Source: a virus
Direction: 5' to 3' (one strand)
Virus record (IMG/VR): IMGVR_UViG_3300024520_000319
Span: 1-32,222 of that record
Length of the DNA stretch: 32,222 bases
In this document: positions 1 through 31,645 of the stretch, piece after piece
Layout of the letters: each line of letters opens with the position of its first letter
How positions within the stretch are numbered: position 1 is the first letter of the stretch
Notes under the pieces: generated by a model
Databases searched by the model: none
Seen by the model: the letters and a program-made list of their open reading frames with translations, nothing else
What the model was told of the DNA's origin: nothing
Made by a program: the position numbers and the translations under genes

Positions 1-806
1 TGAACTACGCCGTCGATGGCGGTCTGCCAGAACGAGGCGATATTCTGATCCGCCGCGATTACCCTAGTTCCCGTTGCGGTGAGTAGGTTGACTACGACGT
101 CTTCCAGGGACTCCGCGAGACACTCGACGGTCTGGATGAGTTGATGAACGCCGGTCCCCGCGTCGGCCAGCGCTACCGCCGTGCCGGCGATCGCGTTCGC
201 CTTCGTGGTCGCCAGCGAGAACGTGTTGGCCGACAGGCCGATCACGTAGTAGTCGGTCCCCGTCGCGCCGTTCGCCAGGACGGTCCCGCCGCCGGCCCAG
301 GACCCGGCCGCGGCCTCGGCGACCGCGATCGCGTCGCCGATCGCCGAGTCGAGCGTCTCCGCGTAGACCGTGCAGACGTCGCCGGCAGCGACGGCGTACA
401 CCGTCGGATTACCGGTCATCGAGACGCCGTACGCCGACGCGGCGCCGGCTCCGAGGTTGATCGCCGCGGCGAGGTTCTCGGCCGCCGTCGCGTCGGCCGC
501 GTTGACGTCGACCTCGCCGTCAGCACTCGGAGCGTTCTTCCAAGTGTAGACCTTGCCGGCCACCGTCACCGTCTCGTCCTCGATGTCGGTCGCCGGCGTG
601 TAGGCCAGGCTAGACCTGACCGCGACGACGAGCCCGGACGGCGCGTCGGCGTTGGTCGTCATGACCCGGAACGGTCCGGCGCCGGTCTGAAGACCGTGCG
701 CCGTCGCGGTCAGGATGTTCCCGGACGATCTCACGAACTCCTTCGGGAGACCGGTAGGGATCTTCGCACCGCCCATGGCGGTGATGAACAGTGCCTTCGT
801 CGTCAT
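1..806 (-). CDS. Phage structural protein, 3' end outside window
   Basis: This leftward reading frame starts at ATG 806, just downstream of the major capsid gene, and stays open to the left edge, so its C-terminus is missing. A GGAG lies about 7 bases before the ATG. The translation begins MTTKALFITAMGGAKIPTG and contains ATAHGLQTG, a VTVAGKVYTWKN segment, AENLAAAIN, and later TDYYVIGLSANTFSLA followed by GTAVALADAGTGVH. Combinations of 'HGL-TG', 'YYVI--NTF-LA' and 'GTGVH' are familiar in phage head, decoration and tail-fibre proteins, but I cannot assign a specific role. Its place right after the capsid gene fits a head decoration, head-tail joining or fibre protein. The rightward frame opposite it is Arg-rich and looks like a shadow. 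Confidence 0.7.
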   Translation of the reverse strand, partial: MTTKALFITAMGGAKIPTGLPKEFVRSSGNILTATAHGLQTGAGPFRVMTTNADAPSGLVVAVRSSLAYTPATDIEDETVTVAGKVYTWKNAPSADGEVDVNAADATAAENLAAAINLGAGAASAYGVSMTGNPTVYAVAAGDVCTVYAETLDSAIGDAIAVAEAAAGSWAGGGTVLANGATGTDYYVIGLSANTFSLATTKANAIAGTAVALADAGTGVHQLIQTVECLAESLEDVVVNLLTATGTRVIAADQNIASFWQTAIDGVV

Positions 807-852
807 GACTACTCCGTGGTTCTTCTGAGAGGGGGAACTCAGCTCGCGCGCG

Positions 853-1974
853 CTAAGATTCTCGCGTGATCAGTCGAGCAAACTTCACCTGCTTGCGCTC
901 CGGGTAGACCCGGTTCCAGCTCGTCGCGATGTTGATGTTGTTCGTCGTCGCCGCGTTCGTCGGACCGCCGTTCGGAGCCGTTCCCGTGTAGGCGTGACCG
1001 ATCGGGTGGATCGACCACTCGACGCGCGAGTAGAGGACCTCCTGACCGCCGCCGTTGCCCGCCTGGGGCTCCCGCGTGATCTCGGTCGCGACCTTCGGCG
1101 TGCCGACGCCGAGCTGAATGGCGCCCGGTCCGAAGAGCCAGGTCTCGAACATGCCGGCCGCTCCCGCGGTGCCGGCGCCGAGGACGACGTTTGTTCCGCT
1201 CGGCATGTTGTCGTCCACGACGACTCGCCGACCGAGGAACGTCGCGATCATGACCTCGCCGCGAGCGTCCGGAATGAAGTCGATTAGGTTGTTCTTCTGC
1301 GCTCGGTTGTAGACCGTCGAGTGGAACATGGCGATCCCGAGATCTTCCTGGGAGTCTCCCATCGTGACCGCGGCGTCGAGGAACGCCTCCGCGCTGAAGT
1401 CCGTCACGCCGGCGACGTAGGCGCCGCCGGAGATGTCGTTCGCGTAGTCGCCGGCATCGTTGACCCCGTTGTCCTTCGATACACCCTGCATCGTGGCGAT
1501 GACCGCGGCCTGAAGTCTGCGCGCCCAGTAGTTCGACACGCGACCGGCGATCGCGTCCGCGGGATCGTCCCCGGCGAGCTGGCCGGCGAGGTCCGAGGTG
1601 CCCCAGACCTGATTGCGGTTCAGACGAACCGCGATCTCGGTGTCCGTGTCGATCGCCAGCGGACGAGCGTCGTCGAGCTGCTCGGTGAACGTCGCCGCGA
1701 GGACCTCGACCGCGTCTCCCGACATGGTTTGCTTGAAGTGGTCCGCCGTCGAGTCCGTCGACGTGTTCTCGGCGTCGTTGTCGAGATCACGCCAGCTCGG
1801 CACGTTGAAGGTAAGTCCACCACCAGCGAGCAGGCCGTCGATGAAGGGGGATCTCTGGAGCGCCCCCGCCTGAATCAGGCGAGTCTTGTCCTCGGTGAGC
1901 TGCTGGACGTAGGGCGTGAAGACTTCGGGAACGACGAGGTCCGCGACGTTCGTGGTCAGTAGGGCGTCGGACAT
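853..1974 (-). CDS. Major capsid protein
   Basis: A 373-residue protein that should assemble the icosahedral head. The N-terminal pattern VVPEVFTPYVQQLTEDKTRL, then LLAGGGLTFNVPSWRDL, and later AVRLNRNQVWGTSDLAGQL and NYWARRLQAAVIATMQGV, is typical of one family of HK97-fold phage coat proteins. A segment with MFHSTVYNRAQKNNLIDFIP and the strand RRVVVDDNMPSG fits the P-domain/A-domain region seen in that family. It follows the scaffold gene, as expected in a head module. The start has a GGGAG about 10 bases upstream. The family assignment is from sequence resemblance only; the position and length support it. Confidence 0.85.
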   Translation of the reverse strand: MSDALLTTNVADLVVPEVFTPYVQQLTEDKTRLIQAGALQRSPFIDGLLAGGGLTFNVPSWRDLDNDAENTSTDSTADHFKQTMSGDAVEVLAATFTEQLDDARPLAIDTDTEIAVRLNRNQVWGTSDLAGQLAGDDPADAIAGRVSNYWARRLQAAVIATMQGVSKDNGVNDAGDYANDISGGAYVAGVTDFSAEAFLDAAVTMGDSQEDLGIAMFHSTVYNRAQKNNLIDFIPDARGEVMIATFLGRRVVVDDNMPSGTNVVLGAGTAGAAGMFETWLFGPGAIQLGVGTPKVATEITREPQAGNGGGQEVLYSRVEWSIHPIGHAYTGTAPNGGPTNAATTNNINIATSWNRVYPERKQVKFARLITRES

Positions 1975-2183
1975 TTGGAGTGATCTCCCGGGGAGTTCCT
2001 GGATTCCAGTTCAATCCGGAAGTCGAACCCCATGGCCGATAACCGTCCGACGAAAACTCTCGGCGCCCTCCCATGAGGACCGAGCCCCGATCGCCGGGTC
2101 TGGCGGGAGCGTCACAACGCCCATGCGCTGCTCTGCGCGCTATACCCTACGTCCGATGACACGGGGAGTGCAAGGCCCGAAAG

Positions 2184-3035
2184 CTACTTCTTCGCAGACG
2201 GGCGACGACCGCCGACCGTCGTGCCCGCCGCCTTCGCCATCTGGCCGGCCACGTCCCGACCCTCAGTCTGGATGACCTGACCCTGCTTCGTGACGTTCCA
2301 ATCCTCGTGCGAGAACGGGTTTGAACCTCTTCGACCACTCACTCCTCTTGACCCCTGAGATCCGGCGCCGCGGGGTTCCCCCCACCAGAGTGGGCGGAGC
2401 TGCTGCTTCTCGATGTCCAGCATGAGCTGCTTCGGCGAGAGACCCGGCTTGAAGTCGGCGAGTCCCTCCTTCGTGACTACCGCCTCGTCGTCGTCGCGAA
2501 CCTCGAAGATCGAATTCGCCAAGAGGAGAGCGTCGGGCCTGGCCTCCTTGAGTGCCTTCGCGCCCTCGAAGGCCTTCGTGAACTCGTCGCCGATCTTTCG
2601 CGACTTCTTCTCCTTGACCAGGCCGTCATTCGTCGCCAGGAGAATATCACGCTCCTCCGTGACCTCGTCGAGCTGACGCTGAACGGGCGTGAGCTTGCCG
2701 GCGATCCTCGCCTCTACCCGCTTCGTGACGATGCCCTCGATCTTATCCTCGTCGAGCTTGTCTCCCGCCGCGGCCTCGAGCTCGGGGAATCGATCGAGCT
2801 TCTCCTGAACGTCGGAGAGCTCACCGAGCGTGGTCCAGGACTTCAGGTCACTCTTCGCCTTCTTCCTGTCACTCTTCTCCTTCCTCAGGCTCTCCTGGAC
2901 CCGATCGACGTCGGCCTGAGTCCGGATGCCGCCGACCTCCGTCAGCTCCCAAGCCCCGTCCTTCTCGGTGAATAGGGCCTTGTAGTCCTCGGGAACGTCG
3001 TCTTCGCTGTCGTACTTGGCCTCCAGAACTGGCAT
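2184..3035 (-). CDS. Capsid scaffold protein
   Basis: A 283-residue, highly charged protein. The N-terminal part (PEDYKALFTEKDGAWEL) is followed by a long predicted coiled coil from about residue 45 to 150, rich in Lys/Glu (SLRKEKSDRKKAKSDLKS, QLDEVTEERDILLATNDGL). This is the usual build of gp20-type phage scaffolds, which guide capsid assembly and then leave the head. It sits between the minor head protein and the major capsid protein, the normal place for a scaffold. The ATG has a good AAGGAGA about 10 bases upstream. The last 70 residues are Gly/Arg/Ser-rich and probably unstructured. About 210 bases between its stop and the capsid gene hold no gene I can support. Confidence 0.75.
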   Translation of the reverse strand: MPVLEAKYDSEDDVPEDYKALFTEKDGAWELTEVGGIRTQADVDRVQESLRKEKSDRKKAKSDLKSWTTLGELSDVQEKLDRFPELEAAAGDKLDEDKIEGIVTKRVEARIAGKLTPVQRQLDEVTEERDILLATNDGLVKEKKSRKIGDEFTKAFEGAKALKEARPDALLLANSIFEVRDDDEAVVTKEGLADFKPGLSPKQLMLDIEKQQLRPLWWGEPRGAGSQGSRGVSGRRGSNPFSHEDWNVTKQGQVIQTEGRDVAGQMAKAAGTTVGGRRPSAKK

Positions 3036-3074
3036 CTATTCGCGTCTCCTTGAAATCTTGGTTTCCGTTCGATC

Positions 3075-5177
3075 CTAGTCGAAGAAGTCCTCTGGATCCA
3101 AGCCCGCGCGGCGGAAGGAGTCGGGTTCGAGCTTCGCGAGCTCGTCGAGCCGGAGCTCGCGGCCCGACTCGTCGACGAACTTGTCGAGCGTCAGGTCACC
3201 GCGACGGAATAGCCTGCCCTTCGTCTTCCCCAGGATGTCGTCCTGATTCGCCGCACTCTGACGCTTCAGGAACTCCGAGTAGGTCGTCTTCGCGGGGACC
3301 TGGCCGGTCAGCTCCCTCATCCTCTTCCTGGCGAACGCATCGAACGCGCCCTTCGTCCCGCGAGGGAGCTTCGCCCGGCTCGTCGGAGCGTCGAAGCCGT
3401 TCTCGGCGGCGAACTCGCGGAGGAGCTGCTTCTGAGTGAAGTTCCGCGCCGGGCGAGTCCCCATCGGCTCCGGGTCGAGCGTCGGGAGGATCAGCGACCG
3501 CTCCCGGTGGTGGAGGGGCAGGACCGGGCGCTTCTCGTCGTCGAGCTCGAAGGTCTCGCCGTCCAGCGACCGGCAATTATGGACCAGGAGACCATTGGCA
3601 ATGTAGACTCCTCGACAGGTCTCTAGGTTATAGACATGGGTCGATCGAAACTCTCTCCGCACGCTCACGACATCATCGCCGACTACCGAGCAGGGAAATC
3701 CGCCAGGTCGATCGCTATCGATCACGAAACGACCACGACCACTGTCACGAGTCTTCTGAAGAAGGCTGGCGTCATGCCACATCGGGAGCGCGGCGTCGTC
3801 GACGACATGATTGGCGAGGATCGACGATGCATCGTTCGCATGTTCTGCGAAGGCACCAGGCCTTCCGAAATCATTCGCCTTACAGGACGAAGTAAGTCCT
3901 GCGTCTACGCCGTGCTCAAGAGAAATAGAGTGCCTCTCCGAGGTCTTACTAACTGGTCTCCTAGCCATTCTCAGAAGCTCAGAGCCGCAAAGACCAGGGA
4001 GACTCGAGGAATCCTGAACGAGACGGAGAAGGTTGTCCTCAGACTTCTCCGTGCCGCGAAGGTACGCGGTAAGGCGCAGTGGGCATTTGGCTACCAGAAC
4101 GTCGACTTCGCCATCCGTTCCCACTCCGTCGCCGTGGAAGTCTGCTGCCGAGGGACATTCTCGAAGTACGTGCGAGAAGGCTGGATCGTTCGCCGCATCA
4201 AAGAGCTCGGCAATGCTGGGTGGCACGTCTACGTCTTGAACGCCTTCGATCGCAGAACTATCGAGACCTACGGAATAGAGGATCTGCTTTCCTGGCTCGA
4301 CTTCCTCAAGGGACAACCAACCATCCGACGTCAGTACCGGGTGATTCGGTGTCCCGATCAACTCCTTTCCACTGGCTGTTGTGACGATGATTACGTCGCC
4401 GCGATATCGACGCCGATAAAGCTTCTCGACTAGACCGATCGGACGAACCTGAGTCGATCCTTCGACGCAAATCGCCGTGGTCCGCGAATCGAGCGTCGCG
4501 ATGAAGAGGAGGACCTCGAAGAGATCGTCGTTCGTCGCGATGAAGATGTCGCGGCCGCGGGACGCGGCGTGGTTCGACGCGGTGACCGCCAGGGTCTCCA
4601 TCTGGCGCCGCGTCCTCGCCGTCGCGCCGCCGGCGCCGCCGGTCGCCCTCGTTCCCACCACCCGAGCGGCGACCTCTCGCGGCGCCTCGCCCTGGGTCAC
4701 GCCGATCGTAATCTGATCGGCGATCGCCCGCGCGTCGCCGTTCCGCGTCGCGGCGATCCACTCGCCGAGCGTTCGACCGAGGAAGGGGTCCTTCAGCGCC
4801 GCGCGCCGTAGGTCCTTCGCCGCCGGCAGGATCGTCTGAAGCTGCGCCGGCGAGACCGTCCGAGCGGCGGCCTCGACGAACCGCGCCTCGGCGACCGAGA
4901 CGTCGCCCACGCCCTTCCGCATGATTCGCCCCACCTCGCGCCACGCTCCGGCTCGGATCTCACGAACCTCGTCGAGCAGCGCCCTCAGGCGCAGGACTTG
5001 GCCGGCACTCTTGAGCCCGACCCTTCCGCTGCCGAGCCGGTCGCGAATCGCTCGACGGAGGTCGCGCTCGGTCCCGTCGAGGACCTCGAAAGCCTCGTTC
5101 CGAAGCCCCCGAGAGACGCGGAGGAGGTTGATCTGACGCCGGACGAACGCGTCGAGGAGATCCTCATTCGCGGTCAC
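3075..5177 (-). CDS. Minor head protein (SPP1 gp7/Mu F type) interrupted by an intein
   Basis: 700 codons as translated; about 402 residues after removal of a 298-residue intein. Extein N (residues 1-236) is helical and ends in FIATLDSRTTAI. Extein C begins at Cys535 with CRSLDGETFELDD. The joined sequence LDSRTTAIC-RSLDGE is the signature of the SPP1 gp7/Mu gpF minor head domain, which works with the portal during head assembly. The intein runs from Cys237 to Asn534. The GTG start overlaps the TGA of the preceding 95-residue gene (GTGA). Order portal, zinc-ribbon gene, this gene, scaffold, capsid fits a head operon. Function of the spliced protein depends on intein splicing. An opposite-strand gene lies inside the intein (3636-4433). 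Confidence 0.85.
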   Translation of the reverse strand: MTANEDLLDAFVRRQINLLRVSRGLRNEAFEVLDGTERDLRRAIRDRLGSGRVGLKSAGQVLRLRALLDEVREIRAGAWREVGRIMRKGVGDVSVAEARFVEAAARTVSPAQLQTILPAAKDLRRAALKDPFLGRTLGEWIAATRNGDARAIADQITIGVTQGEAPREVAARVVGTRATGGAGGATARTRRQMETLAVTASNHAASRGRDIFIATNDDLFEVLLFIATLDSRTTAICVEGSTQVRPIGLVEKLYRRRYRGDVIIVTTASGKELIGTPNHPVLTSDGWLSLEEVEPGKQILYSVGLDSSAIEGVQDVDVPPSIAELFDAANDPAFSHVLRECPSAADFHGDGVGTDGEVDVLVAKCPLRLTAYLRGTEKSEDNLLRLVQDSSSLPGLCGSELLRMARRPVSKTSERHSISLEHGVDAGLTSSCKANDFGRPGAFAEHANDASSILANHVVDDAALPMWHDASLLQKTRDSGRGRFVIDSDRPGGFPCSVVGDDVVSVRREFRSTHVYNLETCRGVYIANGLLVHNCRSLDGETFELDDEKRPVLPLHHRERSLILPTLDPEPMGTRPARNFTQKQLLREFAAENGFDAPTSRAKLPRGTKGAFDAFARKRMRELTGQVPAKTTYSEFLKRQSAANQDDILGKTKGRLFRRGDLTLDKFVDESGRELRLDELAKLEPDSFRRAGLDPEDFFD
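3576..4469 (-). other. Intein in the minor head protein
   Basis: 298 residues, Cys237 to Asn534 of the host ORF. Splicing block A is CVEGSTQV. Block B is GTPNHPVLTSDGW, with the expected Thr-x-Asn-His. Block F is THVYNLETCRGVYIANG and block G is LLVHN followed by Cys (+1), so all class 1 splicing residues are present: Cys1, block B His, penultimate His533, Asn534, Cys+1. Between blocks B and F is about 210 residues with a DFHGDG...GEVDV segment, which I recall from other phage inteins, but no LAGLIDADG or HNH motif. A sense-strand endonuclease is therefore missing from the centre. Instead nearly all of this interval is occupied by an opposite-strand ORF. Predicted splice-competent; not tested. 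Confidence 0.88.
3636..4433 (+). CDS. Antisense HTH-Vsr/EDxHD-like homing endonuclease nested in the intein
   Basis: A 265-residue protein encoded on the opposite strand wholly inside the intein coding sequence. Two helix-turn-helix units are visible: residues 11-46 (DIIADYRAGKSARSIAIDHE, ending LLKKAGV) and 62-100 (IVRMFCEGTRPSEIIRLTGR, ending VLKRNRV). A C-terminal Vsr/PD-(D/E)XK-like core follows: GYQNVDFAIRSHSVAVEV (Asp157, Glu168), then IVRRIKELGNAGWHVYVLN. This order of tandem HTH plus Vsr-like nuclease is known from free-standing phage homing endonucleases of the I-Bth0305I/EDxHD group. The His that usually follows the 'AVEV-GG-W' stretch is not obvious here (CCRGTFSKY), so activity is uncertain. 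ATG 3636 lies opposite the conserved block F His codon. Codons on the two strands are in exact register. No strong ribosome site was seen. Confidence 0.72.
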   Translation: MGRSKLSPHAHDIIADYRAGKSARSIAIDHETTTTTVTSLLKKAGVMPHRERGVVDDMIGEDRRCIVRMFCEGTRPSEIIRLTGRSKSCVYAVLKRNRVPLRGLTNWSPSHSQKLRAAKTRETRGILNETEKVVLRLLRAAKVRGKAQWAFGYQNVDFAIRSHSVAVEVCCRGTFSKYVREGWIVRRIKELGNAGWHVYVLNAFDRRTIETYGIEDLLSWLDFLKGQPTIRRQYRVIRCPDQLLSTGCCDDDYVAAISTPIKLLD

Positions 5178-5461
5178 TTAGGTGGCTCCCAACCTTCGAG
5201 AATGACGTGCTCGTGGAATGAGCACGTATCCGTGAACGGGCACACCACTGACGGCGTGACGACTCCGTCGTCGGAGATGTCGTGACTTGGATGGTCTTCA
5301 TCAGTGGGCGGACGCTGAAGGGTTCCACCCTGACCGCACTGTGGACACTTGAACGTGACGATGACGAAACCATCACCGTCGACGTCGTAGCGAATCCACG
5401 TGCCCGGAGGCTGCTCGCGCTGAGGGCCAGTAAATCTCGGATAGCTCCGACGGTTCGTCAC
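5174..5461 (-). CDS. Small zinc-ribbon-like protein in head operon
   Basis: 95 residues with Cys39-x2-Cys42 (FKCPQCGQGG) and a second cluster Cys74, Cys80, His83 (VVCPFTDTCSFHEHV), giving one possible zinc site. It ends in VILEGWEPPK. The GTG start overlaps the TGA of the portal gene, and its own TGA overlaps the GTG of the minor head gene, so it is translationally coupled on both sides. I do not recognise a named family. Small Cys-rich proteins between portal and minor head genes are common in phages, and no function is assigned. Confidence 0.7.
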   Translation of the reverse strand: MTNRRSYPRFTGPQREQPPGTWIRYDVDGDGFVIVTFKCPQCGQGGTLQRPPTDEDHPSHDISDDGVVTPSVVCPFTDTCSFHEHVILEGWEPPK

Positions 5462-6993
5462 CTACTCGCCCCGACCGGCTCCTTCTCCGCCTCGACCTCC
5501 TCCTCCTCCTCGTCCTCGTCCTCCTCCGGACCCTCCGGATCCATACTCGGCGGCGGCGGATTGAGGTCCTCGTTCTCGCGCTCCTCGGCGAGTTGGGCGA
5601 TCTCCTCCTCGAAGGTCATCTCGGTCACGCCCTTCTTCTGCATGTTGCCGTGAATCGTACGCGACGAGAGCGGAGCGCCCATGGTCTTCGCGCCCTGAAG
5701 CTGAGTGAGCTCCTGGCCGCTCATCGTGTCGTCGACGAAGTCGAGGTTCGGCTCGACAGCGACCGCTTCCGGGTCGGCTCCCATCCATCGAGCCCCGATC
5801 CTCAGGAGCTTCTCCAGAGCGTGGGCGGAGGCCTTCGCGACGTGGTTCAGCGTGGCGGTCCGAGCTGAGACTCGAATCTTCAACGCCTCGCCGGATTCGG
5901 CGTCGCGCGAGGTCGACTCCATCGGATCGCTCGTCATCGAGCGAGCCTCGGTCCGATCGTTCTCCAACGACTGACGCTGCTCCGGTATACCGGCGGAGTT
6001 GACGCCGATGTACCTCGCGTCGCCACCGATGGGCAGAGCGATCTCCGCGTGAGCGCCGACCCTCCGATTCGGCTTGTCGTCGACGTCGCCGATCACGACG
6101 AGCGTGTCCTGACCCGTCATGAAGAGACTCTGGCGATAGTCGGCCTCGCCGCGGTAGATCGTGAGCGAGATGTTCGATAGACCGAGAAGCGGCGGTCGAT
6201 CCGGAGTCGCCAGCGCGTCTTTCGAGTTCACGAAGACGAACGGGACCTCGTTCGACGTGCCTCGGCCCGTTCGGGGCTCCTCGAGCTTCGACGGATCGAA
6301 GCTCTGATCCTTCTCGAAGACGGCCTGACGATAGATCCCCTCACCCTCCGGCTCGTTCTCCAGAGGATCGCCGAGGACGAGGACTCGATACTTCTCGACG
6401 TCGCGCCAGGTGAACGGGTCGGCGCCCGCCTCCTCGCCGCCGCGCTCCGCGCTCGACTCGTCGAGGACGACGAGGTTCAGGTTCGACCTCTCGATCTCCT
6501 CGCGCTGTCCGTCGTCCCAGTTGATGATGGTCTCCGCCTCGTAGAGGGAGACGTAGAAGTCACCCTTGCTCGCTCCGACGTCCTGAACGTCGAGCAGGAG
6601 GCCGAGCCGGCCCGCGACGAGCTGAAGCTCGGTCATCTTCTGGAGGAGCATCTGGAGAGACTCTCCCTCCAGCGTCGCGCTCTCGATTAGGTGCTCCATC
6701 TGAGAGGGGAGCTCGATCGTCGCATCCTTGTTGTGCATCACGCCGAGGAGCCCGGCGACGGCCTGACGCACCAGGTCGGGGAATACCGATCGAGTCTTGT
6801 ACGCGCAGTACGCGAGCCAACCGCCCGAGCTGGCGTTCAGCGTGAGCGCCCCGTCCTTGATCATCCCGTCGGTCGCCGGGAGGTACTCGAAGCCCGCGTT
6901 CTTGACCTCCCGCTCCCCCTCGTAGGTCACGCGCATCTGGCGCCAGTCCTTCAGGCACTTCGAGTAGAGCGGATGGGGAGTACTGATGCTCAT
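5458..6993 (-). CDS. Portal-like protein (DUF4055 type)
   Basis: 511 residues. The N-terminus (HPLYSKCLKDWRQMRVTYEG, REVKNAGFEYLPATDG) and the following YCAYKTRSVFPDLVRQAVAGLLGV match the pattern of DUF4055 proteins, which occupy the portal position in many siphovirus and podovirus genomes. The middle part LGLLLDV and ETIINWDDGQ is also typical. The C-terminus is a long acidic tail (DPEGPEEDEDEEEEEVEAE), encoded by repeated ctc/gag codons. It lies directly after the large terminase gene and before the minor head gene, as a portal should. It would form the dodecameric ring for DNA entry at one vertex. ATG start; stop overlaps the next gene's GTG. Confidence 0.82.
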   Translation of the reverse strand: MSISTPHPLYSKCLKDWRQMRVTYEGEREVKNAGFEYLPATDGMIKDGALTLNASSGGWLAYCAYKTRSVFPDLVRQAVAGLLGVMHNKDATIELPSQMEHLIESATLEGESLQMLLQKMTELQLVAGRLGLLLDVQDVGASKGDFYVSLYEAETIINWDDGQREEIERSNLNLVVLDESSAERGGEEAGADPFTWRDVEKYRVLVLGDPLENEPEGEGIYRQAVFEKDQSFDPSKLEEPRTGRGTSNEVPFVFVNSKDALATPDRPPLLGLSNISLTIYRGEADYRQSLFMTGQDTLVVIGDVDDKPNRRVGAHAEIALPIGGDARYIGVNSAGIPEQRQSLENDRTEARSMTSDPMESTSRDAESGEALKIRVSARTATLNHVAKASAHALEKLLRIGARWMGADPEAVAVEPNLDFVDDTMSGQELTQLQGAKTMGAPLSSRTIHGNMQKKGVTEMTFEEEIAQLAEERENEDLNPPPPSMDPEGPEEDEDEEEEEVEAEKEPVGASR

Positions 6994-8457
6994 CTACCAC
7001 ATCCCGGATGTAGTTCCTGAACGAACTCGGAAGCCCTCAGACCTGATCCGATACCGGGTCTCGTCGGCGATGTGATCCTCGGCGTCGGTGTCCACATCCT
7101 CAAGGTTCTTCTCGTCTCGCGGAAGGCTCAGCACGGTCCGGAGGAAGTCCGGACACTCCGATCCTACCACGAAGAGCCCGGGCGCCTCACGCGGTAGTCC
7201 GTCGATCCTGTGAGCCGCCTTCATCATCTTTCGCATGAGCTCCCACCCCTGGACGCGAGAACCCGGCCGCTTGTCGGCGTGGGCCCAGGAGATACCGCGA
7301 TAAATCGACCCGTCGAACCGAACCGGCTTCGCCATGTCCGAGCCGATGCAGTGGCCGCTCTCCACGGTAAAGATCGACGAGTCAGCCGGACCGGGCTGGA
7401 CTATACAGCGATCTCCCCTCCTCCAGCCCCAGAGGATCTCGCGCTCGATAATCCCCTGAGAGATCTCCGTCGCGAGCATCTCGACGCCCTGGTTCGGCTT
7501 ACCCGAGCAGCCGTACCACTCCTTGACCCGGAAGAGATCGCCGGGAACCGTCGAGCGCCAGGACCCGTCGCGCATCAGGAGATCCGACCCGTCCGACCTC
7601 GCCCACCACCCGACGGCGAAGGGCTTCGTCGATCCCCAGTCGAACGACCGGTCGACGCGCCAGCCGATGGGAACCTCGAATCGCTCCATCACGTTGAACT
7701 CCGACTTCCAGACCGCGGAGAACATGCCGCCGACGGGAATGTCCCAGTCACCGTCGAACCACGCCTTCGCCTGCTCCGGACTCGTCGCCGCCGCGGCCAG
7801 GTTGTCCTTGTAGTTCGGGTCGGCCTCGAGAAGGACCGTATTCTCGTCGACGTGGCTATGAATCGCGCATCGGATGGGTTCCTTCCTTCCGCTGTCGTCG
7901 ACCGCGTCGGTGATCGTGCGCGTTCGCCACCAGTCGCCGTGCAGCTTGTAGCGATCCTGAACCCAGCCGTGACCGACGCCGTACGGGTTCGTCGTCGCGC
8001 GGATCATGCGCGGCACTCCCTGCTTCGACGAACGACAGCACGCGAACATCTTGCGGAAGCACTCGTCGTCCCTCCAGTTCGTCAGCTCCTCCCAGCCGAT
8101 GAACGGGTACTCGTGTCCCTGGTAGTTCTCGCAGTCCTCCGGCCGCGCCATGTGGCGAAGGAGGAGCGCCTCGCCGGTCGGCCACTCCCACATCATCTTC
8201 GAGCGATTGAACTTCGCCTGCGGGAAGATCTGCGAGAACCACTTCTCGGTCTTCGCCTGAACGTCCGCGAGTTGCGGGTAGGTCTGCCTGAAGATCACAC
8301 CGCGCCACGCGTGACCGTGTCCCTTGTCGACGTGCTGGGCGTAGGACATGATCATCCCGTCGGTCTTCGCCGCGCCGCGCGTACCGTGGTTGAGCACCTC
8401 GACGAACGGGCACGACATGAACGCAGTCTGCGACCCCTTCAGCGGCATCCACGCCAC
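6994..8457 (-). CDS. Terminase large subunit
   Basis: 487 residues. Walker A is GTRGAAKT (25-32), in the context EVLNHGTRGAAKTDG typical of phage terminases. Walker B is PFIGWEEL (118-125) and the coupling motif is ATTNPYG (154-160). The C-terminal nuclease domain starts with RSFDWGSTKPFAVGWW (first metal-binding Asp273). The enzyme cuts concatemeric DNA and pumps it into the head. The start used is GTG 8457, the only usual start codon between an in-frame TAA at 8512-8514 and the conserved AWMPLKGSQTAF. The in-frame sequence before the GTG (VERYVDGKR) also resembles terminase N-termini, so the true start is slightly uncertain. Its likely small-subunit partner lies about 9.5 kb away (17873-18331). 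Confidence 0.92.
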   Translation of the reverse strand: MAWMPLKGSQTAFMSCPFVEVLNHGTRGAAKTDGMIMSYAQHVDKGHGHAWRGVIFRQTYPQLADVQAKTEKWFSQIFPQAKFNRSKMMWEWPTGEALLLRHMARPEDCENYQGHEYPFIGWEELTNWRDDECFRKMFACCRSSKQGVPRMIRATTNPYGVGHGWVQDRYKLHGDWWRTRTITDAVDDSGRKEPIRCAIHSHVDENTVLLEADPNYKDNLAAAATSPEQAKAWFDGDWDIPVGGMFSAVWKSEFNVMERFEVPIGWRVDRSFDWGSTKPFAVGWWARSDGSDLLMRDGSWRSTVPGDLFRVKEWYGCSGKPNQGVEMLATEISQGIIEREILWGWRRGDRCIVQPGPADSSIFTVESGHCIGSDMAKPVRFDGSIYRGISWAHADKRPGSRVQGWELMRKMMKAAHRIDGLPREAPGLFVVGSECPDFLRTVLSLPRDEKNLEDVDTDAEDHIADETRYRIRSEGFRVRSGTTSGMW

Positions 8458-8511
8458 GCGCTTCCCGTCGACGTATCGCTCGACCGGAGCCTTCGCCGCC
8501 TCGACGCGAGC

Positions 8512-8628
8512 TTAACGGAGACGAACGCCGTACTCCTTTATCTCCGCCTGGCTCGGCTCGTGAGTCGACGCCTCGACGGCGCGAACCGTGCTCGGATTCG
8601 TGTAGCCCCTACGACTTCGTAGCTTCAA
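8512..8628 (-). CDS. Possible 38-residue peptide before terminase
   Basis: A short frame with a TTG start, reading LKLRSRRGYTNPSTVRAVEA then STHEPSQAEIKEYGVRLR and ending at TAA. It overlaps the end of the 61-residue gene by 20 bases and is in the same frame as the large terminase, separated from it only by the TAA and 18 codons. The composition is protein-like. It could be a tiny real gene, or the remnant of a longer terminase N-terminus cut by a stop codon. Weakly supported because of the TTG start. Confidence 0.35.
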   Translation of the reverse strand: MKLRSRRGYTNPSTVRAVEASTHEPSQAEIKEYGVRLR

Positions 8629-25783: not shown

Positions 25784-27990
25784 TCCTCCTCCGGGAACCG
25801 CTCCTCCAGCCCCAGCTTCGGCGTCGGCCACACGTACCGCCGACTGCCCTTTACTTCCGTCCGGATCAGGTCCGCGCCCTCCAGGTCCCGCACGATCCGC
25901 TGAAGCGTCGACCTCAGCACGCCGCGCAGCGCCACCTCCTCGAGTAGCTGCGAGAACGTGATCGCCTCCAACTCGCTGAACGGCTCTAGCACCTCGAGTA
26001 CCGCCACGATCTGTGCCTTCCGAGCCGGGTCCCGCGTCATCGCGTTGATCGCCGCGAAGCTCTCCGCGTCCGTCTCCGGCCTGATCAGCCGGCACGAGCT
26101 CTGCGGATTACCGAAGTCGTCCGGCGGGAGTTGTCCGAGCTGGATCGTCTCCAGCTCCAGCGAGATCCCCTCGAACTCGGCGTCGTCCTTCGCCTTTTCC
26201 CCAACTACGTGGACCTGCGGACGCCGCTCGCCCGGCGTCTTCAGCACCCGGATCTTCGCCTCCACCGCGCCCGCCATCACCGTCGACCCCCGCTCCGAGT
26301 CACCCGCCTTCCGGGTGTGGTGGACCAGCGCCACCGCGACCTCGTAGTCCCGCTGAAGACCGCGGCACCGCTCGACGATCTCCGTCACGTCTCGCGCCTG
26401 GTTCTCGTCCACCCCGGGGATTGCCCGACTCAGCGTGTCCACCACGATCAACGCCGGCTTCTCCTCCATCTCCTCGATCTTCCGCCGGATCCAGTTCAGC
26501 CGAGCCGGGTCGCTCAGCCGGATCCCCTCCGTGAACGCCAGCCGACCGTCCAGCTCCGCCGGGTCGCCGTCCCAGGCCGCCAGCAGTCGCTTTCGCATGC
26601 CCACCAGGCCCTCGAGCGCCCCGTAGAGCACCACGCCCGGCTTCGTCGGCAGCTCGAACCAAGGACGCCCGGAGGCCACCGCGATCGCCATCGACAGTGC
26701 CACGAAACTCTTGCCCGAACCCGGGGCGCCGTAGATCATCGCCAGCTCGCCGCGATTCAGGATCTGATGGATCAGCGCCGGCGGGGGTCGCAGCGCCATC
26801 AGGTCCGACGGCCAGAGGATCTCCGGCTCCTCGATCGGGATTTCCTGAGAAAGTATCGGGATTTCCTGAGAAAGTGGGGACGTCCCAGGCGTAGCGGTCG
26901 TTCCTCTCTTGACGAGCTGAAGATGCCGCCCGCGCTCCCGCAGCGCCGCCCGGTAGGCCGGACTCTCCGCCGCGATCCCGAAGACCGTCTTGATCGTCCG
27001 TCCCCGTCCCCCGGCGAAGGACGCCCAGTGCTTCCGACAATCCGCGTCGCCGCCGAACTTCGAGCCCCGCGAGCTCCAGTCCACGAACAGACCGAAGCCC
27101 TCCTCCGAGCCGCCGAACTCGTCGTGGATCCCCATCCCGACCTTCACCCAGTCCTCGTACCCGAGATCGGGTTCCACGTGGAGCAGCGCCTCCCGGACCT
27201 CGTCGACCCGGTCGGAGTGCGTCGGCGCCGCCACCGGGTAGGATGCCTCCCCCACCGAATCCAGCACCACGCCCCCCCGATTACCGGTGAGGTCCCGCGC
27301 GAAGGTCAGCCCGGGCGGCCCAGGGACCGGAGTTCCGGCCGCGAGGGGCTCCGACGCAATGACCCCTCGAGTACTCGAGCGGGAATCCGGCAACCGGGCC
27401 GGGACCCTCAGCGCGTCGATCAGCCAGTCCGGCGCCGGCGCGACGGCCTGACCGCTCATCTCCGGTAGGTCGGGCGGGAAGTCCCACTCGTAGAGGTTCC
27501 CGCTCGCGTGGTTCGACGGCGGCAGGATCACGTAGCCGCCCTCCCCGCGCACGTCGAGACCAGACTCCCGCCGCGCCAGGTTCTTCATCGGCCGATCCGG
27601 GTCCCAAGTGAAGAACAGGTGGTGGGATCCTCCGCCCGACCCGGTCACCGCCAGCGGCGTCTCGGGCAACTCCCGCCCGGCGCAGAGGTCCGCGAGCTCC
27701 TGACCGCCCGACTTATCGCCGCGCTCGTCGACGTCGAGCACCCAGACTCCCGAGCCCGCGCCGGTCGCCAGACCGATCGAAGCGTCGGGGAACTTCTCCA
27801 ACCACCAGGTGCAGAGCCAGCTCTCGTCCGTCGTCGCGTTCTTGCATCCCCGCGGCGTTCGCGGGTGCTTCCCCGCGTCCCGGCAGCCGACCTTCCCGCA
27901 CGAGCACTCGCCGTTCTCGAGCATGCTGTACACGGGAAACACTCTCCAACCGAGAGCGGCGTACCTCCTTGCCCAGACGAGATTCGACAT
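25780..27990 (-). CDS. Prim-pol/RepA-like helicase fusion
   Basis: 736 residues from ATG 27990 (MSNLVWARRYAALGWRVFPV); a TTG 19 codons upstream is less likely. The N-terminal prim-pol domain has LDVD at 85-88, SGGGSHHLFF (118-127) and LDVRGEGGYVILPPS (145-159), the three active-site motifs. A CxC...C cluster near residue 30 may bind zinc. At 260-345 is a PriCT-2-like region (YEDWVKVGMGIHDEFGG). From 390 a RepA/AAA_25-type ATPase follows: GAPGSGKS (421-428), ALIVVDTLS (513-521), LVHHTRKAG. A winged-helix C-terminus closes it. It primes and unwinds DNA for replication. A 21-bp tandem repeat encodes the linker at about 374-387. Confidence 0.88.
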   Translation of the reverse strand: MSNLVWARRYAALGWRVFPVYSMLENGECSCGKVGCRDAGKHPRTPRGCKNATTDESWLCTWWLEKFPDASIGLATGAGSGVWVLDVDERGDKSGGQELADLCAGRELPETPLAVTGSGGGSHHLFFTWDPDRPMKNLARRESGLDVRGEGGYVILPPSNHASGNLYEWDFPPDLPEMSGQAVAPAPDWLIDALRVPARLPDSRSSTRGVIASEPLAAGTPVPGPPGLTFARDLTGNRGGVVLDSVGEASYPVAAPTHSDRVDEVREALLHVEPDLGYEDWVKVGMGIHDEFGGSEEGFGLFVDWSSRGSKFGGDADCRKHWASFAGGRGRTIKTVFGIAAESPAYRAALRERGRHLQLVKRGTTATPGTSPLSQEIPILSQEIPIEEPEILWPSDLMALRPPPALIHQILNRGELAMIYGAPGSGKSFVALSMAIAVASGRPWFELPTKPGVVLYGALEGLVGMRKRLLAAWDGDPAELDGRLAFTEGIRLSDPARLNWIRRKIEEMEEKPALIVVDTLSRAIPGVDENQARDVTEIVERCRGLQRDYEVAVALVHHTRKAGDSERGSTVMAGAVEAKIRVLKTPGERRPQVHVVGEKAKDDAEFEGISLELETIQLGQLPPDDFGNPQSSCRLIRPETDAESFAAINAMTRDPARKAQIVAVLEVLEPFSELEAITFSQLLEEVALRGVLRSTLQRIVRDLEGADLIRTEVKGSRRYVWPTPKLGLEERFPEEE

Positions 27991-29308: not shown

Positions 29309-31395
29309 GCTAGCTTCTCCCTACTACCCTCGGCGTAGAGGTGCGCGATGATCTCCTCGAAGCCGCGAGCGTTCTTCACGACGCGAATGACGTCGGGAGT
29401 CTTGAATTCTGAATTCGGATCGGCCAGGACGTTCGTCGACAGCTCGATCGCCGCGACGGCCTCCTCGACGGTCTTCGGGTAGGGAGCGTCGCCGGCGTGC
29501 TTCCGCCACCACTTCTCGGCCTTCTTCCTCATGTTGCCGTCGCGCTCGAAGTGGACCCACTCCCGGATCCGCCGGCGACCGCACCAGTAGACCACGAGCA
29601 TCGAGTTCGGCTGGAACGGCTTCCGATGAATGGAGACCTCCATCGAGTCGACGCGGTGCTCCTTCGGCATCGGCAGGGAGATCCTCTTCCCATCGCCGTC
29701 GAAGTCCATCACGGCGAGCGTCGAGGCCTCCGCCTGATGGTTCGGCCGAATCTCGAAGGTCGGCCAGACGTAGCCGCAGGGGATCGGCGGGATGCCGGGG
29801 CAGGCGAGGACGCCGACGAGGGAGATCGTTCCGCACTCGGGGCAGACCCGAACCGACGGCTCGGCGACCGACGCGCGCTTCGACCTCGGGCGGATCTTAT
29901 TGATCGGCCCGTGACGAAGGACGTTACTTCCGTAATCTAAAACTAAACAATTTGAAACGATCAAGCCCTCGACGACGAATCGATGTCGAGGTCCAGCATT
30001 CAGGACGTCGTAGACCGTCGCGATTGCTTCCTCGTGTTGAGCTGCTGCTGTGACCTCGTAGTCCATCGAAGATTCCCCGGCTCGTAGTGACCAGCGCGCA
30101 CGTTGAACTTGAATCTGGAGCGAACGGCACTCTCCGAGAGTCTTCCAACCATAGTCAGTCACCACTTCGTGGTCGGGGGTAGCCCAGAGCCCATCGTAAT
30201 AGATCACGCGTTGAGGACCCATGCACATAACGCCGTCATGAGATATGAACTCAACGCCGTCCCACAGGAGATCATCGCCGCGAACCTGTTCAATCGGCAC
30301 CAGACCGCGATCAGTCAGGACGCGCTGACCCTCGGCAATACAATTCTTCTTCCCGGGAGAGTTGCGCATCCCGCGCCCCATGATCTGCACGTAGAGCCCC
30401 GGGCTCTGCGTCGGTCGCATGACGATGAGTAGATCGATCAGCGGCGAGTTGAAGCCGGTCGTCAGGACTCCGACGTTCACGAGGCACGTCAGTTCGCCAG
30501 CCCTGAACTTGTCGGTCAGGTAGTCGCGCTCGACCTTCGGGGTGTTTCCGAAGACGACCTCCGCGTCGACGTCGCAGTCCATCATCGTCGCGCGGATCTG
30601 GAGCGCGTGCTTCCTCGTGCAGGCGAACGCAAGCCAGTGCCTCCGATCGTGATCGCGAGCGATCGAGACGGCCTCGTAGGTCGCCGCGATCGTCTTCGGC
30701 ATGATCTTCGACTCGAGCTGCTTCCGATTGAAGTCGCCCGCGGAGATCGCGACGCCGCGGACATCGAACGACTCCTTCGGCTGCTTCACGACGAGCTCGC
30801 AGAGGTGATCCGGGACGAGATCCTCGAGCCTGACCTCGTGCGCGACGTGCGTGAAGATCCGATCGTCTCCGCGGTGGAGGTAGCCGCCGTTCATCCGGTA
30901 GTGCGTCGCGGTGTAGCCGACTCTCCGGACCTTCGGGTTCAGCTCACGCATCGCGTCGAGGAAGGTAAGGTAGCGACCTTGCCCCCTCTTGGGCACGAGG
31001 TGAGCCTCGTCGACCAGGACCAGGTGGTAGGGACCGAGTTCCTCGACGCGATTATAGACGGACTGGATGCCGGCGAAGAGCACGGGGCTCCCGAGGTCGC
31101 GCCGCTTCATGCCAGCGGAGTAGACGCCGGCGATCGAGTTCAGCGGCGAGTCCCACTGACCGAGGAACTCCTCGTAGTTCTGTCGGATCAGCTCGCGCAC
31201 GTGGGTGAGCACGAGGAATCGGTTCTTCGGGAACCGCCTCAGGCTTTCGCGGATGAACTCCGCCATGATCAACGACTTGCCGCCACCGGTGGGTACGACG
31301 AAGAGGGGATGGGCGTCCGGTTCCTGGTGACGCTCGAAGAACTCGTAGTGCTCGTCGAGGCTCTCGCGCTGATAGGGCCGGAGGGTCAGGGGCAC
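29305..31395 (-). CDS. SF2 DNA helicase with a mini-intein
   Basis: 696 codons as translated, about 565 residues after removal of a 131-residue intein. Q-motif-like start LTLRPYQRESLDEHYEFF; motif I is VPTGGGKS (34-41), motif II is VDEAH (128-132), motif III region GYTAT (160-164) and motif VI QIMGRGMRNSPGKKN. The intein sits right after motif VI (Cys352-Asn482). After it come a Cys4 zinc site (CPECG...C...C, about 518-540) and a C-terminal domain with VEEAVAAIELS. It unwinds or remodels DNA during replication or recombination. GTG start, one base after the stop of the previous gene. Confidence 0.88.
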   Translation of the reverse strand: MPLTLRPYQRESLDEHYEFFERHQEPDAHPLFVVPTGGGKSLIMAEFIRESLRRFPKNRFLVLTHVRELIRQNYEEFLGQWDSPLNSIAGVYSAGMKRRDLGSPVLFAGIQSVYNRVEELGPYHLVLVDEAHLVPKRGQGRYLTFLDAMRELNPKVRRVGYTATHYRMNGGYLHRGDDRIFTHVAHEVRLEDLVPDHLCELVVKQPKESFDVRGVAISAGDFNRKQLESKIMPKTIAATYEAVSIARDHDRRHWLAFACTRKHALQIRATMMDCDVDAEVVFGNTPKVERDYLTDKFRAGELTCLVNVGVLTTGFNSPLIDLLIVMRPTQSPGLYVQIMGRGMRNSPGKKNCIAEGQRVLTDRGLVPIEQVRGDDLLWDGVEFISHDGVMCMGPQRVIYYDGLWATPDHEVVTDYGWKTLGECRSLQIQVQRARWSLRAGESSMDYEVTAAAQHEEAIATVYDVLNAGPRHRFVVEGLIVSNCLVLDYGSNVLRHGPINKIRPRSKRASVAEPSVRVCPECGTISLVGVLACPGIPPIPCGYVWPTFEIRPNHQAEASTLAVMDFDGDGKRISLPMPKEHRVDSMEVSIHRKPFQPNSMLVVYWCGRRRIREWVHFERDGNMRKKAEKWWRKHAGDAPYPKTVEEAVAAIELSTNVLADPNSEFKTPDVIRVVKNARGFEEIIAHLYAEGSREKLA
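29950..30342 (-). other. Mini-intein in the helicase, at motif VI
   Basis: 131 residues, Cys352 to Asn482. Block A is CIAEGQRVLTDRGLVPIEQV, block B is WATPDHEVVTDYGW with the Thr-x-x-His, block F is TVYDVLNAGPRHRFVVEG and block G is LIVSN followed by Cys. The penultimate residue is Ser instead of the usual His. There is no room for an endonuclease, so it is a HINT-only mini-intein. The local sequence is less GC-rich than its surroundings (for example aactaaacaatttgaaacg at one border), a sign of separate origin. Confidence 0.88.
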
Positions 31396-31396
31396 T

Positions 31397-31645
31397 TCAG
31401 GTTCCCTCCGCGACGAGTCTTTCGAACTCCTCTTCAGTGACCGATCCGACGTGACTACCGCAAGCGTCGAGTCGTTGATAATTGATCGTCTGATTCACGT
31501 CGTCGATCTCGGCGTCGAGCTTCCTGAATACTCCTCCGGAGTATCGAGTGGTACTCCCGTCCGATCTACCGCCACCGGACGGCGCGAGGAGAACGAGCAG
31601 CTTGCCGTTGAATCTCCAGATCGCTCCCGCGTCGTAGGGTCTCAT
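31397..31645 (-). CDS. Small hypothetical protein
   Basis: 82 residues from ATG 31645 (MRPYDAGAIWRFNGKLLVLL), with GGACAGGA upstream; an in-frame ATG at 31693 would add 16 residues (MGCCERFPGGLHGQDA) and overlap the preceding gene by 14 bases. Later residues FRKLDAEIDDVNQTINYQRL and a Glu-rich end EEEFERLVAEGT. Stop lies one base before the helicase GTG. Function unknown. Confidence 0.6.
   Translation of the reverse strand: MRPYDAGAIWRFNGKLLVLLAPSGGGRSDGSTTRYSGGVFRKLDAEIDDVNQTINYQRLDACGSHVGSVTEEEFERLVAEGT

Follow-up and report, generated by a model that had tools for sequence, protein, structure and literature searches.

A phage intein whose opposite strand very probably encodes an in-register endonuclease gene

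An intein-containing head gene with an open frame on the opposite strand

We analyzed a 32,222-nt stretch of viral DNA (IMG/VR record IMGVR_UViG_3300024520_000319, positions 1 to 32,222; GC 63%), hereafter the window, focusing on a minor head gene whose coding sequence contains an intein and, on the other strand of the same DNA, an open reading frame (ORF) for a putative helix-turn-helix (HTH) endonuclease. The principal features of the locus are as follows.

3075..5177, minus strand: MuF-like minor head / head morphogenesis gene, exteins plus intein (PHROG 241, E 2e-89)
3576..4469, minus strand: class 1 intein of 298 amino acids (aa) (splicing motifs, Pfam Intein_splicing, AlphaFold2 Hint domain, Foldseek)
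3636..4433, plus strand: in-register gene, conserved in relatives, for an HTH + Vsr/EDxHD-like endonuclease of 265 aa with a predicted role in homing
4317..4352, minus strand: block B of the intein, TPNHPVLTSDGW, whose DNA also encodes nuclease residues 228-239
4125..4142, minus strand: sense DFHGDG segment, opposite nuclease residues 164-169 (SVAVEV), with codons frozen in both readings
3618..3638, minus strand: intein block F HVYNLET, also serving as the nuclease gene start region

The head gene is a single uninterrupted ORF of 700 codons in which the intein coding sequence is unsplit. Its intein carries Cys1, block B TPNHPVLT (T-x-x-H), block F HVYNLET and a C-terminal HN followed by the extein Cys, and these protein splicing motifs make an RNA intron unnecessary. 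The AlphaFold2 model contains a Hint fold, with per-ten-residue predicted local distance difference test (pLDDT) scores of 77-95 over residues 1-70 and 88-95 over residues 261-298 (mostly 85-95 across the Hint halves), and Foldseek matched it to GyrA, RecA, RadA and DnaB inteins, with probabilities reaching 1.0 against solved inteins. Homing endonucleases carried in frame are a known feature of inteins. Here, Pfam and PHROG profile searches found no endonuclease domain on the sense strand of the intein, and the centre (residues 134-258) has pLDDT values almost entirely below 50 and is predicted to be disordered.

The plus-strand ORF (265 codons, ATG start) lies wholly within the intein and occupies 798 of its 894 nucleotides (89%). 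Both frames use the same triplet boundaries, with the low base of every codon at a position divisible by 3, so that every codon in one frame has its reverse complement as a codon in the other. The ATG coincides with the block F His codon (sense residue 278), and the stop codon lies opposite sense Leu13. An earlier note on this DNA, made from the letters alone, had described such a class 1 intein of 298 residues, lacking a sense-strand endonuclease and about 90% filled by a codon-in-register antisense ORF, and each of these points was borne out.

That note had also cautioned that long antisense ORFs are common in GC-rich DNA, and rightly so: other window genes carry antisense ORFs of up to 470 aa, and at 63% GC we therefore dropped ORF length as evidence. 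Under one alternative, there is no antisense gene, and the ORF is either a frame that stayed open by chance in GC-rich sequence or the passive shadow of an intein centre that is itself conserved. The long antisense ORFs elsewhere in the window (470 and 445 aa) favor this alternative, as does the rarity of antisense-stop codons (TTA, CTA, TCA) in this genome: in six coding stretches nearby they account for about 0.6% of sense codons. None of the other long antisense ORFs of the window, which we used as a control set, had a Pfam match, and they look like by-products of GC-rich sequence.

7210-8622, plus strand: long antisense ORF opposite a terminase-like gene (control set)
26131-27468, plus strand: long antisense ORF (control set)
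30607-31440, plus strand: long antisense ORF (control set)

The opposite-strand frame encodes a predicted HTH nuclease

An AlphaFold2 model of the window antisense protein, computed with 35 relatives, reached a mean pLDDT of 89.4 and comprises two three-helix HTH units followed by a mixed alpha/beta nuclease domain.

3654..3764, plus strand: HTH unit 1, residues 7-43 (AlphaFold2; HTH_58)
3789..3923, plus strand: HTH unit 2, residues 52-96 (AlphaFold2; HTH_23, E 2e-6)
3966..4385, plus strand: nuclease domain, residues 111-250 (AlphaFold2; Foldseek I-Bth0305I, Vsr; profile 3HRL, 3R3P)
4026..4028, plus strand: conserved Glu131, present in 35/37 family members
4098..4106, plus strand: N155-V-D157 in the nuclease core; all 37 sequences have the N and the D

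The best Foldseek matches in the PDB included 2LVS, a CRISPR repeat-binding HTH protein, and the homing endonuclease I-Bth0305I (3R3P, probability 0.90), and the Vsr structures 1VSR and 1CW0 were matched with probabilities of 0.90 and 0.80, respectively. A profile of the nuclease family matched 3HRL, a DUF559-type endonuclease (E 2e-7), 2LVS (E 6e-7) and 3R3P (E 9e-5). Across the 37 family members, Pfam matches comprised 26 to MTES_1575, 17 to DUF559 and 2 to Vsr, and residues N155, D157, A166, E168 and R187 were invariant in all 37. Taken by itself, the window protein matched HTH_23 (E 2e-6) and, weakly, the MTES_1575 nuclease (E 0.012) in Pfam, and a single-protein sequence search of the PDB returned no significant match.

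The arrangement recurs in related phages

We collected related loci through searches based on the nuclease, on the intein and on the N-terminal splicing domain; these three sets overlap and their counts are not additive. In four E. coli phages, the nuclease matched over 94% of its length at 42.6% identity, compared with 26.8% for the intein encoded by the same DNA. In the related E. coli phage Snoke, this head gene has its intein at another position, again with an antisense nuclease, and this nuclease in turn matches 103 phage records. A search of viral contigs with patterns from the E. coli phage nuclease gave no match.

The nuclease-based search of viral contigs yielded 67 loci plus one Snoke-like locus, and all 68 have an open in-register opposite frame that exceeds 500 codons, spans the nuclease and, in nearly all cases, contains a recognisable intein. 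A long open in-register opposite frame was likewise present at 13/13 loci found in bacterial genomes. Free-standing members of the nuclease family were absent from the nuclease-based hits, which came from core-pattern searches that are not exhaustive. Pfam Intein_splicing was detected in 42 of 49 representative opposite-strand proteins, whose exteins belong to the MuF, minor capsid 2, portal, DNA polymerase A and uracil-DNA glycosylase families; one host protein in each of the latter two families places the intein outside head genes, and locus L011 looks like the uracil-DNA glycosylase case.

Starting from the intein gave the same picture. Each of the best 80 loci from an intein-alignment search had a match to the nuclease profile in the antisense in-register frame (E 1e-46 to 1e-92), in 70 cases without any stop within the match, and the other two antisense frames of these loci gave nothing significant. 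A search with only the 68-residue N-terminal splicing domain, which is blind to the intein centre, recovered the antisense in-register nuclease at 79/80 loci. At the one remaining locus, L217 (about 1640-2520), a mini-intein of 172 residues has its splicing motifs intact and keeps DFHGDG; it is a natural control in which the nuclease has been lost and many antisense stops are present. The upstream host gene at this locus seems to bear a second intein ending in HN|S.

Wherever we examined annotated records, the only feature over the nuclease was the head gene, with the intein marked in one. The PHROG profile phrog_15127, labelled 'head protein', is matched by all 49 intein-bearing host proteins, and because its match in the window falls on intein residues 1-127, this profile appears to include intein sequence and to spread a head annotation. 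Separately, another IMG/VR contig (3300024518_006724, L004) matches window positions 1-8430 with 3 differences in 8,430 bases.

Codon-level constraint in both directions

Across 67 non-redundant intein-selected loci, we observed 0 antisense stops in 14,337 sense codons of the nuclease span, compared with 322.5 expected from extein codon use; across all 106 loci the count was 0/22,954 against 467 expected. In addition, first codon positions in either frame face third positions in the opposite one, which makes it possible to tell from the pattern of substitutions which strand is constrained. A sliding window over 37 members shows a nuclease-type pattern at intein residues 54-263 and an intein-type pattern at residues 14-53. 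Centre changes between Salmonella and E. coli phages mostly affect the third position of nuclease codons; one typical pair differs in the centre at 39, 18 and 76 sites at nuclease codon positions 1, 2 and 3, respectively, and most centre changes alter the sense protein.

Synonymous codon use shows where the sense strand also matters. Conserved nuclease residues that do not overlap splicing motifs are encoded by freely varying synonymous codons. Codons are frozen, by contrast, opposite block B and at A166-V167-E168, with the latter three residues encoded by GCC in 37/37, GTG in 29/30 and GAA in 34/37 members, which points to constraint from the sense reading. Conversely, the block B Val is encoded by GTA in 39/50 loci (background 0.11) and the block B Ile by ATA in 44/47 (background 0.15), each choice keeping a Tyr in the nuclease. 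Codon choices in both directions show that the two proteins constrain the same codons. By these patterns, double coding is strictest at block B, at DFHGDG and at block F, where the nuclease starts and often has its Shine-Dalgarno sequence, and the rest of the intein centre mostly follows the nuclease.

The DFHGDG...GEVDV segment had been put forward in the earlier note as a segment present in other phage inteins. On the other strand, its DNA encodes the nuclease core (AVAVEV plus YNVDFA), and we have replaced its reading as a plain intein motif with one in which it sits opposite that core; what stands is that DFHGDG seems to be constrained on the sense strand as well, with codons frozen beyond what the nuclease would need. 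The same note's proposal of two HTH units with a Vsr/EDxHD-like core agrees with the AlphaFold2 model, the Foldseek matches and the family profile, and its suggestion that both strands are protein-coding is upheld by the absence of antisense stops in homologous inteins, the two-way codon constraint and the conserved arrangement. Neither of the two outcomes named in the note as refuting its reading was observed: the ORF does show homology to HTH and Vsr/EDxHD-type nucleases, and the antisense frame of the 67 non-redundant intein-selected loci is free of stops. To this we add that the case is, as judged from the collected loci, not single but part of a large family.

In a second alternative, the head gene received an antisense nuclease gene as an insert, with intein motifs that are vestigial and a host protein that either tolerates the insert or is dead. 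The sense centre does resemble non-structured read-through. Cys1, the block B Thr and His and the HN|Cys junction are nevertheless conserved in the set, the codons of the splicing residues are constrained in a way that runs counter to what the nuclease itself would prefer, the role of the head gene makes it essential, and the exteins align contiguously with intein-free relatives, all of which makes a vestigial intein highly improbable.

The nuclease start lies in splicing block F

3636..3638, plus strand: nuclease start codon ATG, the block F His codon (CAT) on the other strand
3625..3628, plus strand: weak Shine-Dalgarno-like AGGT opposite block F NLE

We next considered 101 non-redundant loci with a recognisable block F. 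The codon at the block F His position is an antisense start codon in 90 of these (81 ATG, 7 GTG, 2 TTG), and GAGG or GGAGG occurs at proper spacing in 45/101, compared with 3.4% of other antisense ATGs. Codon choice follows the same pattern, the block F His being CAT in 78/85 (background 0.36) and the block F Leu, whose codon forms the Shine-Dalgarno sequence, being CTC in 57/77 (background 0.26). At one locus (L046, 1225-2085), Pro replaces the block F His, and a GTG located 15 bases downstream, which has a GGGAGG of its own, seems to have become the nuclease start. A terminator scan for the nuclease gene found nothing.

Against an origin by chance or as a passive shadow thus stand the conserved start codon and Shine-Dalgarno sequence, the complete absence of stops where hundreds are expected, and the appearance of antisense stops once the nuclease is lost (L217). 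The nuclease is, moreover, better conserved than the sense reading and is predicted to fold confidently where the sense centre is not, and the other antisense ORFs of the window match no family. We find a chance or shadow frame barely credible, and judge from conservation and homology, not from length, that the antisense nuclease arrangement is not a product of chance.

Distribution and proposed function

Intein-free head genes occur in close E. coli and Salmonella phage relatives, with contiguous matches of up to 97.8% (Kagunavirus/Jerseyvirus head gene), and in other relatives this head gene is interrupted by an intein at either of two positions, with a separate, divergent antisense nuclease at each. 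Loci L001 and L003 exemplify these two non-allelic positions within one Kagunavirus head gene. This patchy distribution is compatible with homing and is not proof of it.

We conclude that the locus is very probably a two-strand mobile element, composed of a minus-strand intein and an independent, in-register plus-strand gene for an HTH/Vsr-type endonuclease that probably acts in homing. The computed results cover both reading frames, their homology and predicted folds, how far the arrangement is conserved and the codon constraint in both directions; from these we infer expression, cleavage at the insertion site and homing, and hence the function of the nuclease as a homing endonuclease. In the mechanism we propose, the class 1 intein would be made within the phage minor head protein and would then splice itself out. 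The nuclease would be produced from an opposite-strand transcript, starting inside block F and ending within the N-terminal splicing domain, and would probably cut the intein-free head genes of co-infecting phages, after which repair would copy the whole intein, nested gene included, into the cut site. The positions of the nuclease start and end would account for the regional pattern of selection, which acts on the nuclease in the centre, on both proteins at block B and DFHGDG, and on the start region at block F.

Several observations weigh against this interpretation. The window protein by itself gives a weak nuclease match (MTES_1575, E 0.012) and Foldseek E-values in the PDB are 0.04-0.3, so that it is the family profile and the fold probabilities that carry the nuclease assignment. 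The GG-x-W-H motif found by the catalytic Glu in most relatives, the place examined for the conserved His of the EDxHD motif, reads CCRGTFS in the window copy and is also replaced, by related residues, in its three closest relatives; the activity of the window nuclease is consequently uncertain, and its catalysis may be altered or lost. In the window itself, AGGT is a weak match to a Shine-Dalgarno sequence, and a scan found no sigma-70-like promoter near the nuclease gene. Finally, the intein-based samples are best-scoring hits and not random ones, and the probabilities treat related loci as independent.

Some of these points bear on a third alternative, namely that the nuclease-like protein is real and serves something other than homing, such as exclusion of co-infecting phages or HTH-based transcription regulation, or is inactive in some lineages including that of the window. 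The replacement of GG-x-W-H in the window's clade and the inferred status of homing itself speak for this view, and the HTH units could serve regulation. On the other side, the catalytic Glu/Asp/Glu residues are near invariant in 37 diverse members, the relatives are homing or Vsr-type nucleases, and the element is patchy and fixed in site with intein-free alleles in close relatives, as homing predicts. We regard a role without homing as unlikely.

Beyond this two-strand mobile element in the window, we consider it likely that intein and endonuclease form an obligate bidirectional gene pair that is old and spans Caudoviricetes phages of Gram-negative and actinobacterial hosts, with motifs co-selected codon by codon, middle base to middle base, and with a splicing motif of one protein acting as the translation start of the other. 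If so, these loci would constitute a large natural family of in-register sense/antisense protein pairs in which both partners are selected. The nuclease gene is present among more than 100 public phage records, yet was unannotated in every annotated record that we examined. The in-register arrangement also offers a modern system for asking how two folds can share DNA made of complementary codons.

Comparison with known systems

We did not find an opposite-strand intein endonuclease gene described in the literature, although a preprint on non-canonical actinobacteriophage inteins by Gosselin, Arsenault and Gogarten (bioRxiv 10.1101/2025.01.02.630785), which has been cited in connection with overlapping frames, may cover part of this ground. 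Published descriptions of vKMB36 (PMC11162368) and of mycobacteriophage inteins (PMC5050341) leave the antisense gene unmentioned.

With canonical class 1 inteins (LAGLIDADG or HNH), the element shares blocks A, B, F and G, an endonuclease within the element, insertion at conserved sites, a patchy distribution and intein-free alleles. In those inteins, however, the endonuclease is an in-frame domain, whereas here it is a separate opposite-strand gene that overlaps the splicing motifs. The nuclease itself shares a profile or fold match and the conserved E, N-x-D, A-x-E core with I-Bth0305I/EDxHD, DUF559, MTES_1575 and Vsr proteins, and differs from them in its two N-terminal HTH units, its antisense position inside inteins and, in the window's clade, the lack of GG-x-W-H. 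Fractured genes, reportedly described by Dassa et al. in 2009, are said to be split inteins with a free-standing Vsr-like endonuclease gene between the halves. Both systems pair an intein with a separately encoded Vsr-like endonuclease, but in fractured genes the intein is split and the endonuclease has its own DNA, while in the present element an unbroken intein shares its coding DNA with the endonuclease.

Endonucleases hidden in alternative frames are also known outside inteins. The ShiLan-type insertion contains a hidden out-of-frame HNH endonuclease (PMC11855218); as here, the insert can be read through in the host frame and hides the endonuclease in a different one, but that endonuclease is of the HNH type, lies on the same strand and is accompanied by no splicing domain. 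Certain nuclear group I introns have antisense homing endonuclease genes, such as that of I-DsqI, and the intron-lacking site is cleaved (PMC9548176). Their homing endonuclease gene is thus antisense to its host element, as in our case, but the host is a self-splicing RNA in rDNA, so that the overlap yields no second protein.

Lastly, long antisense overlapping genes have been reported in bacteria, for instance pop opposite ompA (PMC7103648; reviewed in PMC7457138), and whether prokaryotic antisense proteins are functional is an open question (PMC7457138) for which the present loci provide a testable natural case, with many alignable members and a control lacking the homing endonuclease. Overlaps of the pop/ompA type resemble the present one in having protein genes on both strands, but they are single or young cases of debated function ('typically young', PMC7457138), whereas here we describe a widespread family with homology to known folds and codon constraint in both directions.

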